Shown: positions 2,773 to 18,423 of the stretch, in pieces
How the letters are laid out: each line of letters opens with the position of its first letter
How positions within the stretch are numbered: the stretch's first letter is position 1
DNA from: a virus
Virus record (IMG/VR): IMGVR_UViG_3300046557_000515
Span: 1 to 20,649 of that record
DNA: 20,649 bases
Strand: one strand, 5' to 3'
Position numbers and translations under genes: made by a program
Notes under the pieces: model-generated
What the model was told of the DNA's origin: nothing
The model's database searches: none
The model's input: the letters and a program-made list of their open reading frames with translations, nothing else

Positions 2773-2803
2773 CCCTGCACGGTGCGAGCGTCTTGGAGGT
2801 GGC

Positions 2804-3070
2804 ATGGACGCCGCCCTCGTCACAGCCCTCGGCGTGATCGGAAGCGCCATCGTGGCGGGGGCGGCAGCCATGTACGGATCCCGGATCTCGGGGCGAGCCC
2901 AAAGGGAGGGCAACGCAGTGAACGGCTTCAACTCGCTCACGGACCAGCTGCAAGAGGAACGCCGGGAACTGCGAACCGAGGTGGCCACGCTCAGGGCCGA
3001 GCTCGCCACCGAGCGCGCAGAGTCGGCGCGTCTACGGCTGATCGTGCAGCAGTCGGGAGGTACGCCGTGA
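2804..3070 (+). CDS. Membrane-anchored coiled-coil protein of the lysis cassette
   Basis: An 88-residue protein with one N-terminal membrane helix (about 5-24, VTALGVIGSAIVAGAAAMYG), a basic stop (SRISGRAQR), then a long heptad-like helix from about 42 to 82 (QLQEERRELRTEVATLRAELATERAES, here shown only as the type). GGAGGT lies 5 bases before the ATG. A membrane anchor plus extended coiled coil in a lysis cassette suggests a holin accessory, antiholin or spanin-like factor. The stop overlaps the GTG of the next gene (GTGA), so the two are probably co-translated. No catalytic motif is visible and the function is inferred only from position and topology. Confidence 0.65.
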   Translation: MDAALVTALGVIGSAIVAGAAAMYGSRISGRAQREGNAVNGFNSLTDQLQEERRELRTEVATLRAELATERAESARLRLIVQQSGGTP

Positions 3071-3750
3071 CGCGCACTGAGCGAGTACTGGCCCGGCGCT
3101 GGAAGCCGCTCACTCTCCTCGCGTTCCTGCTGTTCCTCACCGGCGCCGTGCTCCTGGTCTACGTGCGCGTCCAGGCCGAGGCCAACCGCGCCGACCAGCT
3201 CGCCGACGAGGCCGACCTCCGGGGCAGCGCAGTGTCCACCCTCGCCGGAGACGTCCGGGCGCTGAGGGAGCAGGTCAAAGCTCGGGGCGGGACGCCGGTT
3301 GCCCCGGACCCCACCACGGCCGTCAAGGATCTGCCCGACCGTGCCGAAGTGCCCGTGCCCATCCCCGGGCCGCCCGGACCGAAGGGCGACAAGGGCGATA
3401 CCGGGGAGGCCGCGCCCACCATCACCCCGTCGCCCGGAGCGTCCGGGGCACCAGGCTCCGTCGGCGCCGCCGGAGCCACCGGACCCCGAGGCCCTCAAGG
3501 TGACCCGGGCGCCGCCGGGCCCCAGGGTGAGCAGGGGCCGCAGGGCGACCGCGGCGGAGCAGGCCCCGCGCCGTCCGGCTGGACGTACACCGACGGCGCT
3601 GGCACCACCTACGAGTGCACGCCCGACAGCGACGGGTCCACGCACTACACGTGCCAGGCGACCAGCAGCGGCAGCACGCCGTCGTCTCAGGGCCACGGTC
3701 TGCTCGGCTCCGCAGTACTCGCCATGACCGCCCGGTACCGGAAGCTGTAA
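3067..3750 (+). CDS. Membrane-anchored collagen-like (Gly-X-Y) protein
   Basis: A 227-residue type II membrane protein. The GTG start overlaps the preceding TGA and GGAGGT is 5 bases upstream. Domains in order: basic cytoplasmic N-terminus (TRTERVLARRWK), a strong membrane helix (about 14-35, LLAFLLFLTGAVLLVYV), a charged coiled-coil stretch (about 36-70), a short linker, two blocks of collagen triplets (about 97-112 GPPGPKGDKGDTG, and about 125-175 with GAAGATGPRGPQGDPG-type repeats), then a Cys-containing C-terminal domain (YECTPDSDGSTHYTC). Collagen triplets suggest an extracellular trimeric rod fixed to the membrane. It is the last gene of the lysis operon; a wall-spanning or spanin-like lysis role is possible but unproven. 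Confidence 0.7.
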   Translation: MTRTERVLARRWKPLTLLAFLLFLTGAVLLVYVRVQAEANRADQLADEADLRGSAVSTLAGDVRALREQVKARGGTPVAPDPTTAVKDLPDRAEVPVPIPGPPGPKGDKGDTGEAAPTITPSPGASGAPGSVGAAGATGPRGPQGDPGAAGPQGEQGPQGDRGGAGPAPSGWTYTDGAGTTYECTPDSDGSTHYTCQATSSGSTPSSQGHGLLGSAVLAMTARYRKL

Positions 3751-5834: not shown

Positions 5835-6052
5835 GCTTCTGCGGACGCTGCGACCAGCCCATCCTGCCCGGCGAGGGCAGGACGTACCCCATCGATTCAG
5901 GGTCGGCCGCCGCCGCCGACGTCACTGTCCACGCTCGCCTGTGCGAGATGCCTGACCACCAGACGGCGCCGGCTCTGACCCGCTCTCAGCAGTTCGAGGA
6001 GCGACTGGAAGTCATGCGGTCGCGACAGAGCAGGTTCGCGGCGACAAGGTGA
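5831..6052 (+). CDS. Small protein with N-terminal Cys knuckle
   Basis: A 73-residue protein starting at GTG 5831 (GTGA overlap with the previous stop; AGGGAG upstream). Residues 4-7 are CGRC, followed by a Pro/Gly-rich segment, a single Cys-containing stretch (HARLCEMPDH, possible further Cys/His ligands), and a basic helix (QQFEERLEVMRSRQSRFAATR). Probably a one-zinc module plus helix. It is the last gene of this operon; a strong terminator follows 43 bases later. Function unknown. Confidence 0.6.
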   Translation: MSFCGRCDQPILPGEGRTYPIDSGSAAAADVTVHARLCEMPDHQTAPALTRSQQFEERLEVMRSRQSRFAATR

Positions 6053-6094
6053 TCCGCCCGCCCCGTACCCCGTGCCCAGGGGGCGGGCGGGACC

Positions 6095-6134
6095 AGGCCC
6101 CGACCGGACGCCGACCCGGTCGGGGCCTCTTTTT
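6095..6134 (+). terminator. Strong intrinsic terminator upstream of the integrase region
   Basis: A perfect 13-base-pair stem (AGGCCCCGACCGG with its complement), an 8-base loop, and CTTTTT directly after. It ends the small-gene operon and insulates the integrase and proposed attP from upstream transcription. Confidence 0.9.
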
Positions 6135-6186
6135 GTGCCCAACCTTGGATTCGAAGGCGATCACGAAAGTCACGGTAGACCGGAGA

Positions 6187-6204
6187 GAAACCGCAGGTCA
6201 GAGG
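6187..6204 (+). repeat. 18-base repeat, copy 1 (upstream of int)
   Basis: GAAACCGCAGGTCAGAGG. The same 18 bases with a single difference (GAAAT...) occur at 19946-19963 beside the proposed packaging region. The 10-base core CGCAGGTCAG also occurs at 18425-18434 (intergenic) and 15399-15408 (coding). Function unknown. Confidence 0.6.
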
Positions 6205-6248
6205 GCCTCTTTTGGGGATCGCGAAAGACATTCCAGCAAGATCCTTTT

Positions 6249-6312
6249 AGTGGTGGCACAACCGCATATTGGGGTTCCCGAACCCCGGACAGAGACACCA
6301 CTGTTGGGCCAC
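6249..6312 (+). other. Candidate phage attachment site (attP)
   Basis: Three nested inverted repeats lie just before the integrase start: AGTGGTG (6249-6255) with CACCACT (6296-6302); GTGGCACAAC (6253-6262) with GTTGGGCCAC (6303-6312, 9 of 10); and GGGGTTC-CC-GAACCCC (6271-6286). Large serine integrases commonly have attP immediately upstream of int as an imperfect dyad of about 50 bases, and arms of the form CCCAAC...GTTGGG occur in known Streptomyces phage sites such as TG1. The crossover dinucleotide cannot be assigned. Confidence 0.45.
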
Positions 6313-6321
6313 ACTCGGAGG

Positions 6322-7812
6322 ATGAAGCCCACTCCAACGGCGGTCAGCCGGACGCGCGCGGTCATCTACTGCAGGATTTCCCAGGACCGCACAGGCGCCG
6401 GCCTCGGCGTCGACCGGCAGCGCGAGGACTGCGAGGCCCTCGCGGAACGTAACGGCTGGGACGTCGTCGAGGTGTACGTCGACAACGACGTCTCTGCGTT
6501 CGGGAAGAAGCAGCGCAAGGACTACCTGCGGATGCTCGACGACCTCGAACAGGGCACCGCCACCATCGTCATCGCCTGGCACACCGACCGGCTGCACCGT
6601 TCGCCCGTCGAGCTGGAGCGGTACATCGACCTCAGCGAGAAGCGCGGCGTGTCCACGCACACCGTCCAGGCTGGCGAGCTCGACCTCTCCACCTCGACCG
6701 GCCGGATGACCGCCCGCATCCTCGGCGCCGTCGCCCGCCAGGAGTCCGAACACAAGGGCGAGAGGGTCGCCAGGGCCCGTCGGCAGAAAGCGCTGAACGG
6801 CGAGTGGATGGGCGGGATCCGGCCGTTCGGCTGGGGACTAGCCACCGATGAGACGCGGAAGAAGGTCGACCGGAAGACGGGCGAGGAGTCCTTGGTGCCC
6901 GTCCTCGACATGGCCAAGGCCGTGCCCGAGGAGGCGGCCGCGGTCCTGCACTGGACGGACATGCTCCTGTCCGGCGGATCGATCCGGGGGTGCGTGAGGT
7001 GGGCGGCGGACAAGGGGCTCGTCTCGACGCGCGGCAATGCGATCACGCACACCGACGTGCGGGAGATGCTGATGCGCCACCGGAACGCCGGAATCGCGGT
7101 CTACCGCGGCGAGGAGGTCGGGCGCGGGCAGTGGGAGTCGATCGTGCCCGAGGAGAAGTTCAGGGCCGTCGTAGCGATCCTGAAGGACCCGTCACGGACA
7201 TCGAACCGGGGCGCCCAGCCCAAGTGGGTGGGCTCTCTGCTCCACCGGTGCGGGCGGGACGGCTGCGGCGAGGGCATGACCGTCACGCAAAGCGGCGGCC
7301 GCCAGTATCCGAGTTACAGGTGCCCGACGGGGCACGGCGGCGGCCGGCGCGCGGAGATCGTGGACCAGTACGTCGAGGACACGATCGTCGAGCGGCTGTC
7401 CCGGGACGACGCCGAGGACCTGCTGCTCCCCGGCCCGGACGATGTGGACGTGGCCGGGCTGCAGGCGGAGAGCGAGCAGATCCGCCGGCGCATGACGGAC
7501 CTGGCGGGCCTGTTCGGAACGGGGCAGTTGGAGCTGGGGCCGTTCACGGAGGGCATGGACAAGGCCCGTGCGCAGCTGGAGGGCGTCACCAAGCAGCTGG
7601 CTCGTGCGGCGACGATCGACCCGCTCGTCGGCCTGGTGGGGGCGCCGGATGTGCGGAAGGCGTGGCGGGCGCTGGAGCTGGAGAGGAAGCGCAACGTGCT
7701 GCGGGCCCTCGTACAGGTCACGCTGACCACGCCGCGGCCCGGGCGGATGCCCGACGGCGGGTACTTCGACTACGACGCGGTCAAGTTCGAGTGGAAGCGA
7801 GGGGGCAAGTAG
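6322..7812 (+). CDS. int: Large serine recombinase (phage integrase)
   Basis: Site-specific integrase of 496 residues that would recombine attP with a host attB. The N-terminal resolvase domain (about 12-160) contains YCRISQDR with catalytic Ser20, GLGVDRQREDC, and the later arginine-rich IVIAWHTDRLHRS helix region. A Recombinase domain follows (about 185-290, with GGIRPFGWG) and then a zinc ribbon (about 310-340, HRCGRDGCGEG...YRCPTGH). A coiled-coil segment near 375-420 and a short C-terminus complete the typical long serine integrase architecture. ATG 6322 is directly abutted by GGAGG (no spacer), so initiation may be weak. It is convergent with the repressor, whose stop is 12 bases beyond. 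Confidence 0.95.
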   Translation: MKPTPTAVSRTRAVIYCRISQDRTGAGLGVDRQREDCEALAERNGWDVVEVYVDNDVSAFGKKQRKDYLRMLDDLEQGTATIVIAWHTDRLHRSPVELERYIDLSEKRGVSTHTVQAGELDLSTSTGRMTARILGAVARQESEHKGERVARARRQKALNGEWMGGIRPFGWGLATDETRKKVDRKTGEESLVPVLDMAKAVPEEAAAVLHWTDMLLSGGSIRGCVRWAADKGLVSTRGNAITHTDVREMLMRHRNAGIAVYRGEEVGRGQWESIVPEEKFRAVVAILKDPSRTSNRGAQPKWVGSLLHRCGRDGCGEGMTVTQSGGRQYPSYRCPTGHGGGRRAEIVDQYVEDTIVERLSRDDAEDLLLPGPDDVDVAGLQAESEQIRRRMTDLAGLFGTGQLELGPFTEGMDKARAQLEGVTKQLARAATIDPLVGLVGAPDVRKAWRALELERKRNVLRALVQVTLTTPRPGRMPDGGYFDYDAVKFEWKRGGK

Positions 7813-12512: not shown

Positions 12513-12519
12513 AGAAAAG

Positions 12520-12700
12520 TTCCCATTTTCACCGTGGGAATTGATCCTGCCGGATGAGGTCAACTTCCCAGCCTCCCCCACTACTTCCCACGAGATGCAC
12601 GGTCGCTGACCTGCACACTTCCCAACTTCCCATCTTCTTCCCAACGGCCCGCACAAATTCCCACCCACCCCCCCTCTCTTAGGGGGGTGGGAAGTGGGAA
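12520..12700. repeat. Candidate replication origin: TTCCCA iteron array with large hairpin
   Basis: Ten copies of one hexamer in 181 noncoding bases: TTCCCA at 12520, 12565, 12585, 12619, 12627, 12638 and 12658, and its complement TGGGAA at 12535, 12688 and 12695. At the right end CCCACCCCCC (12664-12673) pairs with GGGGGGTGGG (12682-12691), and the flanking hexamers can extend the stem. Direct iterons plus a hairpin next to a helicase and prim-pol are the expected parts of an iteron-controlled origin. The whole gap, 12513-12746, holds no gene. Confidence 0.6.
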
Positions 12701-12746
12701 AAGCGGGAGCCGCGGGACCGGTGGGACTGCCCGAGAAGGAGAACAG

Positions 12747-13639: not shown

Positions 13640-13671
13640 TCCCGCCCAGCACACCACAGAAGGAGCCCGCC

Positions 13672-14199
13672 ATGTCAGGCGAGACCGTCATCACCGTCGT
13701 CGGAAATCTGGTCGACGACCCCGAGCTGCGCTTCACCCCGGCCGGCGTGGCCGTCGCCAAGTTCCGCGTCGCGTCCACCCCGCGGGTCTTCGACAAGCAG
13801 ACGAACGAGTGGAAGGACGGCGAGAGCCTGTTCCTCACCTGCTCGGTCTGGCGCAAGGCGGGCGAGAACGTCGCCGAGTCCCTTGCCCGCGGCACCCGAG
13901 TCATCGTCCAGGGCCGGTTGAAGCAGCGGTCATACGAGGACCGCGAGGGCGTCAAGCGCACCGTGTACGAGCTGGACGTTGACGAGGTCGGCGTGAGCCT
14001 CGCCCGCGCCACCGCCAAGGTGAACAAGAACCCGTCGGGCGGCGGCCAGCAGCAAGGGTCTCGCTCTGACCGAGACCCTTGGGCCGGAGCCCAGCCCGCC
14101 AACGGCCAGCAGCAGGGCGGCGGGTGGCAAGCCACCCCGCCCGCCGGGCAGCAGCCCGCCGCCCAGGGCGCCGGCTACTCCGACGAACCGCCCTTCTAG
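13672..14199 (+). CDS. ssb: Single-stranded DNA-binding protein
   Basis: A 175-residue SSB that coats ssDNA during phage replication. ATG 13672 has GAAGGAG upstream. The OB-fold (about 1-115) has the usual signatures: [68 protein letters not shown] and YELDVDEVG. The C-terminal third is a flexible Gln/Gly/Pro linker ending in the acidic tip SDEPPF, which in bacterial SSBs recruits other replication proteins. A perfect 10-base-pair inverted repeat (AAGGGTCTCG...CGAGACCCTT, 14054-14080) lies in the linker coding sequence. Confidence 0.97.
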
Positions 14200-15880: not shown

Positions 15881-16290
15881 GCACCGAGCCGCACCGCGTC
15901 CCGCAGTCGCCCCGATACCGGGACGGCACCGTCATCCTGCAGACCGTCGACCACGGCGAGGTCACCATCCCGGAGCCCGGGTGGTGCACCGGCCACGACG
16001 GAGAGTACGTCGGCCACCTCGCCGACCTCACCCACAACGGCGTCCACGTCCGCGCCGGAGCCGCCACCTACGCCCACGGCTACGTCGAGATCCTCGACGC
16101 CTACATCAGCCACGCCCCCTACGGCGAGCTCCACCCCGAGGCGCACCCGCTGCTCTCCCTGCACCTCGACCTCGAGCTCGACGCCACCCCCGAGGACGCC
16201 CGCAAGGTCGCCCAAGCCCTCCGGGTCGCATCCCTCCGCATCGACCGCGTCGCCGACGAGGTCGAGCGCATCCGCGGCGGTGGCCGGTGA
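15877..16290 (+). CDS. DUF6907-like protein
   Basis: A 137-residue protein starting at GTG 15877 (GTGA overlap). The sequence PGWCTGHDGEYVGHLADLTHNGVHV, ISHAPYGELHPEAHPLLSLHLD and the final helix (ATPEDARKVAQALRVASLRI) match the pattern of the actinobacterial DUF6907 family (W-C-x-x-H, hydrophobic-D-L-x-H, Y-G-E, AR-helix). Function of the family is unknown; it is frequent in Streptomyces genomes and mobile elements. Coupled to the membrane/HTH gene that follows. Confidence 0.65.
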   Translation: MSTEPHRVPQSPRYRDGTVILQTVDHGEVTIPEPGWCTGHDGEYVGHLADLTHNGVHVRAGAATYAHGYVEILDAYISHAPYGELHPEAHPLLSLHLDLELDATPEDARKVAQALRVASLRIDRVADEVERIRGGGR

Positions 16291-17108
16291 AGCGTGATCC
16301 CCTGCTGTGGGCCGCGCTCGCCGCGGTCCTCACCGTCCTCGCGTCCGCAGAGTACAAACTCGCCGTCGCCTGCGGGTTCGGCACCTACGTCGCTGCTGGG
16401 GTCCCGGCCGCGCTGGACGTGTACGCGCTCGCCGCGCTCCGGGCTCGCCGCGACGTCTTCACGGTCGTCCTCACCCTGATCGCGGTGAACGCGGCCAGCC
16501 ACCTCGTCGAGGTCGGCCTGCTGCCCGTATCCGTGGCGCTCGTCGTCTCCGTGTCCGCGGTCGCTCCGCTCGTGCTGTGGCGCGTCCACAGGCTCTCCGA
16601 GGGCGTGCCTACTGTTCCAATTGGAACAGTAGAGACCTCGGCGGAACTGGTGCCGGAACCGAGTTCCGCCCCGGCGGAACTGCCGGAACCGATCACCGTC
16701 GAGCGCGAGCCCGTGGTGTCTGGAATTCCAGCCACGCCAATCGACGCGGTGCCTGTGAGCCCCGTCCTCGGTCCCTGGCGCCCCGTGGCGGAACTCGCAG
16801 TCGGAACCAGCGGAACCGGCTTCGACCTGCTCGGCGACCACTTTCGCGACGCCGCGAAGGTCGTCGGCGGAACTCCAGCGGAACCAGCACCGGAACTAGT
16901 TCCGCTCACGGTTCCGCCCGCCGGAACCGGCGCCGCAGACATCGCCTCCGAGGACAGCAGCAATACGACCTTCGCCAAGCGCGTCGACACCGTGCGGAAC
17001 TGGCTCCGGGCGGAACCGGACCTCACCGGAACCGAGATCGGAACCAGACTCGGCGTCTCCGACGGGTACGGCAGGCGCCTGCTCCGGACCGCGCGAGACG
17101 GCTCGTGA
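16287..17108 (+). CDS. DUF2637-like membrane protein with C-terminal HTH
   Basis: A 273-residue protein starting at GTG 16287 (GTGA overlap). About 6-99 contain four membrane helices (LLWAALAAVLTVLASAEYKL, TYVAAGVPAALDVYALAAL, VFTVVLTLIAVNAASHLVEV, VSVALVVSVSAVAPLVLW), as in DUF2637/SpdB-like proteins of Streptomyces plasmids and integrative elements. Residues 100-230 form a Pro/Val/Glu linker coded by DNA full of GGAAC. Residues 232-270 (VRNWLRAEPDLTGTEIGTRL, GVSDGYGRRLLRTARD) are a winged-helix/HTH domain facing the cytoplasm. It is thus a membrane-tethered DNA-binding protein, possibly for partition, replication tethering or transfer; the target could be the repeat in its own gene. First gene of a membrane-protein block. 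Confidence 0.7.
   Translation: MKRDPLLWAALAAVLTVLASAEYKLAVACGFGTYVAAGVPAALDVYALAALRARRDVFTVVLTLIAVNAASHLVEVGLLPVSVALVVSVSAVAPLVLWRVHRLSEGVPTVPIGTVETSAELVPEPSSAPAELPEPITVEREPVVSGIPATPIDAVPVSPVLGPWRPVAELAVGTSGTGFDLLGDHFRDAAKVVGGTPAEPAPELVPLTVPPAGTGAADIASEDSSNTTFAKRVDTVRNWLRAEPDLTGTEIGTRLGVSDGYGRRLLRTARDGS
16614..17044. repeat. GGAAC/GTTCC repeat tract inside the DUF2637-like gene
   Basis: Sixteen GGAAC and four GTTCC occur in 431 bases; about one would be expected by chance. Each GTTCC pairs with a nearby GGAAC, giving dyads GTTCCAATTGGAAC, GGAACCGAGTTCC, GGAACTAGTTCC and GGTTCC-N7-GGAACC. The motif lies in three frames: eight GAA (Glu), seven GGA-ACN (Gly-Thr), one CGG-AAC (Arg-Asn). All eight GAA codons of this stretch are in the motif; the other Glu codons are GAG. 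This shows selection on DNA sequence. Confidence 0.85.
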
Positions 17109-17251
17109 TCCTCGCCGCGTTCTTCGTCGCCGCTGCCTCGCTCGCGCTCCTCGGCCTCTGCGCCGTCGCGCTCCCCGACGTCCCCAAGATCTCCGGGACC
17201 GTCGCCCTCGTGCTCACCCTCGCCGCGCTCGGCGTGGCCGTCCTCCGCTAG
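17105..17251 (+). CDS. 48-residue double-membrane-span protein
   Basis: Starts at GTG 17105 (GTGA overlap). Two hydrophobic helices (ILAAFFVAAASLALLGLCAVAL and TVALVLTLAALGVAVL) are separated by PDVPKISG; nothing else is present. Such a tiny hairpin membrane protein between a membrane-HTH protein and another polytopic protein suggests a subunit or partner of the membrane complex. Coding status rests on the overlap and codon pattern. Confidence 0.6.
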   Translation: MILAAFFVAAASLALLGLCAVALPDVPKISGTVALVLTLAALGVAVLR

Positions 17252-17259
17252 GACCCTCG

Positions 17260-17781
17260 ATGCACCCCATGAACTACGTCACCTACGGCGGCGTCACCGT
17301 CGGCCTCTGCCTCCTCATCCACCAGGCCGTCACCTGGTACCCCAGTCGCAAGGCCCTGATGAAAGACCCGCTCAAGCACGCGGCCCGGCTGCTCCCCTTC
17401 CTCGCGTCCTGGGCTTACGGGTGCCTCACCACCCTCGGCATCGGAGGCATCATCGGCACCGCCTCCAGCGCCACGCTCGGCTTGTCCAACTGGCTCGGGG
17501 ACGTTGCCCTGTTCTGGGGCGTCGGCGAGCGCGGCGGGCAGCTCGCCGCAGCCAAGACGTTCGTCCCCTTGTCCGGCCCCGGGGCGGCCCTGGTGCTGAT
17601 CGCCACCGTCGGGTTCGTCGCGGCCGTGAAGAAGGCCAGCGAGGAGCGAGCTGGAGTGCTCAAGCGCGGCGCCTGGTGCGGCATCACGCTCGGCACCTCG
17701 GCGGGCGTCGCAGGGTTCGCCGCGGTGCCGCTGGCGCTGAGTGCGAACTGGATCGGCGACCACATCTATGCGGCGTTCTGA
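17260..17781 (+). CDS. Polytopic membrane protein, 173 aa
   Basis: ATG 17260 with AGGA upstream (a second Met at residue 4 is possible). Hydrophobic segments near 8-26 (TYGGVTVGLCLLIHQAV), 45-75 (LPFLASWAYGCLTTLGIGGIIGTA), 103-124 (GAALVLIATVGFVAAVKKA) and 139-160 (ITLGTSAGVAGFAAVPLAL). The GLSNWLGDVALFWGVGERGG loop and the basic KKASEERAGVLKRG loop are notable. Similar proteins occur beside DUF2637 genes in Streptomyces plasmids and integrative elements. Function unknown. The stop overlaps the following ATG (TGATG). Confidence 0.65.
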   Translation: MHPMNYVTYGGVTVGLCLLIHQAVTWYPSRKALMKDPLKHAARLLPFLASWAYGCLTTLGIGGIIGTASSATLGLSNWLGDVALFWGVGERGGQLAAAKTFVPLSGPGAALVLIATVGFVAAVKKASEERAGVLKRGAWCGITLGTSAGVAGFAAVPLALSANWIGDHIYAAF

Positions 17782-18122: not shown

Positions 18123-18205
18123 TCCGACGCCTCTTCACCCTCGTGCACGAGTACTGCTCCGAGTGCGGATGGTGGGTACAGGGATGCCCGCACCAGAAGC
18201 TCTGA
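18119..18205 (+). CDS. 28-residue zinc-finger-like microprotein
   Basis: Starts at GTG 18119 within the previous stop (GTGA), with GAGGAGG upstream. The sequence ends YCSECGWWVQGCPHQKL: CxxC followed by CxxH at suitable spacing for one zinc ion. Its short size means chance is possible, but the ribosome site, overlap and Cys pattern support a real gene. Function unknown. Confidence 0.5.
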   Translation: MIRRLFTLVHEYCSECGWWVQGCPHQKL

Positions 18206-18222
18206 CCGCGCATCATGGGGCC

Positions 18223-18423
18223 ATGGAGTCGCACCTCATCCGCCCCGGCCACCTCACCGCCCACCAGACCGCCCGCGTCCTCGGCGTCAGCCTCGGAGGC
18301 GTCCGCCTACTCGTCCACCGCGGCCAGCTCGCACGCTCCGGCGGCACCGTCGGACAGCCCTGGTACGCCGTCGAAGACGTCACCGCCCTCGCCCTGAAAC
18401 GACAGACCCGCAAGGCCGCTTGA
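18223..18423 (+). CDS. Small HTH protein (excisionase/regulator-like), 66 aa
   Basis: ATG 18223 is preceded by GGGG but no strong ribosome site. The whole protein is one DNA-binding module: LTAHQTARVLGVSLGGVRLLVHRGQLARSGG, then QPWYAVEDVTALAL, i.e. HTH plus wing as in HTH_17/MerR-like excisionases. Second such protein in the window, so this or the 8937 product could be the recombination directionality factor and the other a regulator. The stop codon forms part of TGACC-GCA-GGTCA, and the repeat core CGCAGGTCAG follows. Confidence 0.65.
   Translation: MESHLIRPGHLTAHQTARVLGVSLGGVRLLVHRGQLARSGGTVGQPWYAVEDVTALALKRQTRKAA

Follow-up and report, generated by a model that had tools for sequence, protein, structure and literature searches.

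Organization of the locus

The window (the whole stretch of DNA that was analysed, 20,649 nucleotides of the virus record IMGVR_UViG_3300046557_000515, from a Streptomyces phage) carries on its plus strand, at 16287–17108, a gene with a GTG start that overlaps its upstream neighbour in the sequence GTGA and encodes a protein of 273 amino acids. The product is predicted to combine a four-TM membrane domain, a disordered linker and a C-terminal HTH domain. In the AlphaFold2 model, made for the window protein alone, the membrane domain (16299–16601) contains predicted TM helices at residues 5–28, 32–52, 57–75 and 83–105. It is followed by a Pro/Glu/Gly/Thr linker (residues about 106–225, 16602–16961), predicted to be mostly disordered with pLDDT mostly below 50, and by a tri-helical HTH domain (residues 226–271, 16962–17099) whose core has a pLDDT of about 97. 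The modelled helices of the latter span residues 226–242, 248–255 and 259–271, with the putative recognition helix starting from Ser258/Asp259. Because the number of predicted spans is even, both ends of the protein should lie on the same side of the membrane, taken here as the cytosol. A Foldseek search of the PDB with the HTH model gave no match at E ≤ 0.001 and returned generic HTH domains only, and no match to the window protein was found among 50,697 phage records.

A small hydrophobic ORF of 48 amino acids (17105–17251) overlaps the stop codon of the tract gene and is followed by an ORF (17260–17781) matching phrog_16379, a family of unknown function; Pfam scans of the downstream neighbours gave no match. 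The window also encodes a serine integrase (6049–7812) and a MerR-like small regulator that is a candidate excisionase (18163–18423), a combination consistent with a temperate phage. A collagen-like tail protein is encoded at 2782–3750. The only near match of the window to known phages was the stretch 13650–14028, where identity to the genes for the ssDNA-binding protein in the Streptomyces phages Gilgamesh, Ignacio and Vondra is about 82–83%. Directly behind the genes for Prim-Pol and an AAA_25 helicase, an intergenic cluster of about ten TTCCCA/TGGGAA words was detected at 12519–12701; these are likely replication iterons.

The GGAAC tract and its codon usage

The initial annotation of the window had described twenty copies of GGAAC/GTTCC within 431 bases of the tract gene, and a recount gave the same number between 16614 and 17044. 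The tract extends from the start of the linker, which holds most of it, into the second helix of the HTH. Copies occur on both strands, 16 forward and four reverse (at 16614, 16663, 16899 and 16911), and 18 of them have the core CGGAAC. The forward copies are read, as had been reported, as Glu (eight), Gly-Thr (seven) and Arg-Asn (one). The perfect 24-base palindrome CTACTGTTCCAATTGGAACAGTAG with which the tract was said to open is also present (16609–16632, with a self-match on the minus strand) and contains the first two sites. The relative at locus L004 (88% identical) lacks it, and on this comparison the palindrome is a local variation of secondary importance.

All eight GAA codons lie inside the motif and the six remaining Glu codons from position 16599 onward are GAG, a bias from which selection on the DNA word and not on the protein had been proposed. 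Synonymous shuffling within the gene, a procedure that leaves its protein product and its codon counts unchanged, yielded 5.8 copies on average and 15 at most, and none of the 5000 shuffles reached 20. When codons were sampled mainly from other ORFs of the phage, the mean was 2.45 and the maximum 9 in 3000 samplings (z about 12). CGGAAC was the best word of the tract gene among all 6-mers, with a z of 8.3 that was reached in 0 of 200 shuffles. The codon shuffles and the skewed use of GAA and GGA thus agree that it is the DNA word that is under selection. Tandem Repeats Finder detected no array in the tract. In the window as a whole, 54 GGAAC words were observed versus 41 expected; what stands out is therefore the local clustering alone.

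Relatives with the window-type HTH

A scan of IMG/VR with the window protein identified 19 loci, and wider scans added further loci from IMG/VR, GTDB genomes, Streptomyces genomes and plasmids. The loci of the first IMG/VR scan with the same HTH contain 12–22 copies of the motif each versus about 0.7–2 expected from the rest of the locus; loci with a window-like membrane domain but a different HTH contain 0–2 copies of GGAAC. Retention of the repeat in homologous genes was seen in all 30 fetched genes with the window-type HTH (12–22 copies), although members of one HTH group are akin, so that gene counts overstate their independence, and several records are possibly fragments. Every gene found with the HTH LTGTEIGTRLGVSDGYGRRLLR or close diverged forms of it carries a CGGAAC tract, and the tract is kept even where the linker protein is only 33–38% identical to that of the window (22–28% for shuffled sequence).

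A total of 503 sites was counted in these 30 genes and the base preceding GGAAC was C in 97% of them, which defines CGGAAC as the core word. In the same genes, Glu codons in the G-GAx-C context were GAA in 244 of 276 cases (88%) versus 56 of 296 (19%) elsewhere, and the rare GGA codon was used in 163 of 180 Gly-Thr pairs. In the relative from S. aidingensis (locus L033, 3992–4726; L064), 19 GGAAC copies are present and the HTH is encoded in another frame after the linker, owing to a frameshift or a sequencing error. In record G005 (locus L106, 7751–8040), an intergenic array of 14 AGTGCC/GGCACT words (AGTGCCGTT) follows an ORF of 893 codons; it is likely the origin of a relative, its iterons being unlike those of the window though the CGGAAC tract is shared.

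The initial annotation had assigned the window protein to the DUF2637 type and supposed that similar repeats might be a trait of that family. Neither part was upheld. With the Pfam gathering score as threshold, PF10935 does not match the window protein, and 15 of 17 chromosomal PF10935 genes lack a significant repeated word (significance being set at 0–1 of 200 shuffles). None of the 17 contains a GGAAC cluster, and the two clearest exceptions have a word in just four copies. The multi-span actinobacterial membrane domain is nevertheless a likeness: at locus L015 a PF10935 domain (30.9 bits, cut-off 22.8) is joined to the window-type linker and HTH, and a sub-threshold PF10935 match was obtained for L072. 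The difference is that the window protein lacks the Pfam match and the chromosomal DUF2637 genes lack the tract.

The repeated word changes with the HTH

GGAAC did not prove to be a general motif; each HTH type has a word of its own. Relatives from phages and plasmids of Streptomyces, Kitasatospora, Embleya and Micromonospora carry, as judged from their sequences, other words in the same linker. GGATAC is paired with the HTH ..SIRALRDTYSIGQPRAQRIQ (L018, L062 and L163), and in the phage-plasmid NZ_CP108470.1, with the HTH ..SGTDIGKRLGTGDSYGRR, CGGAAC is changed to CGGTAC (26 copies). Large plasmids such as SAP1 and SGLP1 combine CGTACA or CCGTAC, in up to 41 copies, with VNQxRAVRLLKEAGLL and CNRDRAVRLLDEAGLL. 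CCGGTA (16–21 copies) goes with the HTH WxRNQIR, and CGGAAA occurs 14 times in two Micromonosporaceae plasmids. Among the SxATAxRR HTHs, different recognition helices are accompanied by slightly different words: TGAGAG (9–22 copies) is found with SEATAARRL, TGAGAC (15–17 copies), which is also the word of L288, with SRATAGRRLE, TGAAA[CG] with SQATAWRRLE and TGAGCG (24 copies) with the HTH of an Embleya plasmid.

Among 68 non-redundant proteins, the similarity of the motifs correlated with that of the HTHs (r = 0.88). In partial Mantel tests the correlation between motif and HTH given the TM domain was 0.85 (0 of 2000 permutations), and that between motif and TM domain given the HTH was 0.03 (523 of 2000 permutations). 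The suggestion that the tract might be bound by the encoded protein itself was thus strengthened, as in these 68 proteins motif and HTH co-vary and the tract behaves as a target of the protein's own HTH would. The linker adjoins the HTH and the two are mostly inherited together, and part of the co-variation is therefore common descent. The one-base shifts of the word and swaps between membrane domains and HTHs speak against descent as the sole cause. At L018 a membrane domain 94% identical to that of the window is combined with a different HTH and GGATAC (8 copies), and L015 unites its PF10935 domain with the HTH of the window and CGGAAC (16 copies). A further swap concerns L287 and L166 versus L072 (CGGTAC): in L287 and L166 a membrane part shared at 66–68% with NZ_CP108470.1 is followed by another HTH and TGAGAG. 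The residue corresponding to Ser258 is Gly in L072, and this position is a candidate determinant of A versus T in the word.

The sites lie between the membrane domain and the HTH in nearly all groups, and are more spread in the weak group C and the Micromonosporaceae pair. In nine of the 11 full records scanned, the tract outranked all other 6-mer clusters, clearly or by a wide margin; in record G008 it still ranked first but was modest, and in G009, which carries the weak type F, it did not rank first. The codon-shuffle word test revealed a weak or no significant tract in HTH groups C (part) and F and at L134, L135, L149, L151 and L161.

Some members of the family had additional features. Two different membrane-HTH proteins (L043 and L046) are encoded on a single viral contig, IMGVR_UViG_3300046454_000964. 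The long N-terminal coiled coil of a plasmid relative (L094, 2047–3660) matches DivIVA weakly and below the threshold (E = 0.001), a possible hint of localisation to tips or to curvature. At L019 (6001–6741), the C-terminal HTH itself weakly matches FtsK_gamma, the KOPS-reading domain of FtsK (E = 0.0096, below the cut-off).

A proposed role in membrane attachment

The tract, the selection at the DNA level, the co-variation of word and HTH and the swaps against the membrane domains are observations; the four-TM/linker/HTH architecture is predicted from the model. Both may be brought together in a one-gene module of reader plus address, in which the HTH would read the word (here CGGAAC) in the linker-coding DNA of its own gene. 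The four-TM domain would keep this reader at the membrane with both protein ends in the cytosol, and many anchored copies bound to the tract would tie the DNA of the element to the membrane, which could help to position the element, to segregate it or to spread it through the mycelium. Insertion of the protein during translation could let the nascent HTH emerge beside its own gene and so favour action in cis. This cis model is speculative; such action would explain why address and reader share a gene and move together in swaps, and a site inside the coding region would keep the address linked to the reader. The rapid change of the word may reflect interference between neighbours with the same word, as with centromeres, iterons and immunity systems.

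The steps of this proposal differ in strength. Judged from the sequence comparisons, the HTH very probably binds the tract in its own gene, and tethering of the element's DNA to the membrane is reasonably likely. A role in segregation or spread is conceivable but slightly doubtful. The phages of the window type look integrative, as they encode a serine integrase, and an element integrated as a prophage needs no segregation, which counts against a segregation role; for the mostly extrachromosomal relatives, whose 16 records searched all have a ParA-like match (E ≤ 0.001), partition by the tract would be redundant. Taken as a whole, the module of reader plus address is held with modest confidence to be the best explanation.

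The centromere of a ParA system was considered and is unlikely for the phages, since neither the window record, which may be a fragment, nor any of 14 further, related viral records gave an AAA_31 match. In ParA-bearing records such as NZ_CP108470.1, where the ParA-like match lies at 30.1 kb and the tract gene at 5.1–6.3 kb, the tract protein would be an extra system. Unlikely too, though slightly less so than the other alternatives below, is a clt-like function, in which an FtsK-type translocase such as TraB would be loaded at the tract (as a TRS) and the membrane protein would be an SpdB2-like spread protein. On Streptomyces plasmids TraB is indeed loaded at 8-bp repeats, SpdB2, itself a membrane protein, binds both DNA and TraB (PMC4170104), and the elements studied here inhabit mycelial hosts; however, an FtsK/SpoIIIE domain exceeded the cut-off in no viral record, nor in the phage-plasmid, and in only two of the 16 other records, both Micromonosporaceae plasmids, and the word tracks the protein's own HTH and no other protein. 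An origin of the lambda type, with the tract as iterons within the gene of the initiator, has its precedent in the lambda ori, which lies inside gene O and whose iterons are bound by O (PMC4488673). The tract protein, however, is a membrane protein and contains neither an initiator nor a helicase domain, the window has its separate intergenic TTCCCA cluster behind the Prim-Pol/AAA_25 genes, and the 14-copy array of G005 lies behind a large ORF; these intergenic arrays differ between the two although CGGAAC is common to both, and we regard an origin within the tract gene as improbable.

Equally improbable is that the HTH silences its own gene or, in incompatibility or superinfection capture, traps incoming DNA with the same tract at the membrane. 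The HTH/word types do diversify fast, like immunity and incompatibility determinants, but 12–41 sites across the 3′ half of a coding region would make an unusual operator. That the tract is an artefact of the Pro-Glu/Gly-Thr composition of the linker or of local duplication, free of DNA selection, is scarcely credible: the linkers are compositionally repetitive and the CCGTAC types are dominated by one reading frame per strand, but protein-preserving codon shuffles fail to reproduce the counts, and the word occurs in three frames, on both strands, at irregular spacing, with no tandem array and across diverged linkers.

If the module of reader plus address is real, a single gene would supply both a cis address and its membrane-bound reader, a compact means of positioning mobile DNA in filamentous bacteria, and many 'hypothetical' proteins of Streptomyces phages, phage-plasmids and linear plasmids would gain a testable function. 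Nature has provided, in the pairs of HTH and word, at least eight recognition specificities, the closest of which are one or two bases apart, a collection useful for studying how a short HTH reads DNA; the tracts also illustrate how the coding sequence of a protein linker can accommodate a DNA word across several frames. More tentatively still, these genes may represent a widespread and so far undescribed class of actinobacterial phage and plasmid DNA anchors that lack an NTPase of their own, in which the gene of a membrane protein is its centromere, the HTH as reader and dozens of short words in the linker-coding DNA as address form a swappable cassette and an evolving code separates co-resident elements.

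Comparison with known systems

No description of the tract was found in the open-access papers searched. The DNA-binding proteins of Streptomyces plasmids offer several points of comparison. The TRS repeats in clt are, like the tract, short words clustered on Streptomyces elements, and a DNA-binding protein (TraB) reads them, as presumably also happens at the tract; but TraB is a hexameric FtsK-like motor, and no such domain exceeded the cut-off in the tract-bearing phages. SpdB2 of pSVH1 and SLP2 is an integral membrane DNA-binding protein, with a stabilising effect reported for SLP2; that of pSVH1 reportedly binds DNA non-specifically and no tract was described for it (PMC4170104). Compared by description, it shares with the tract protein the location in the membrane and DNA binding, which is presumed for the latter.

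SpdA2 of pIJ101 binds the palindrome sps within its own coding region, and the silent removal of sps lowers segregational stability and not transfer; SpdA2 is small, its putative DNA-binding region is N-terminal, and its sites are 1–3 copies of a conserved 12-bp palindrome, CGTCACGTGACG (PMC4170104), a word other than CGGAAC. Both systems place sites inside a gene of a Streptomyces mobile element, the self-binding of the tract protein being suggested by co-variation. The tract family differs in its four predicted TM helices, its C-terminal HTH and its 6-bp word, present in as many as 41 copies and changing with the HTH. The lambda ori is likewise an array of sites inside a gene, bound by the product in lambda and presumably so here, but O is a soluble initiator acting on four 19-bp iterons and an AT-rich segment (PMC4488673), and the tract gene encodes a membrane protein in a phage with a separate candidate origin. 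SpdA2/sps and O/ori thus show that an intragenic self-site can be functional, and neither system joins a membrane protein to a long tract whose types co-vary. What appears new here relative to such self-recognised intragenic sites is the combination of a membrane protein, a long tract and a word that co-varies with the HTH, which suggests that mobile DNA may attach to the cell membrane by a route not described before.
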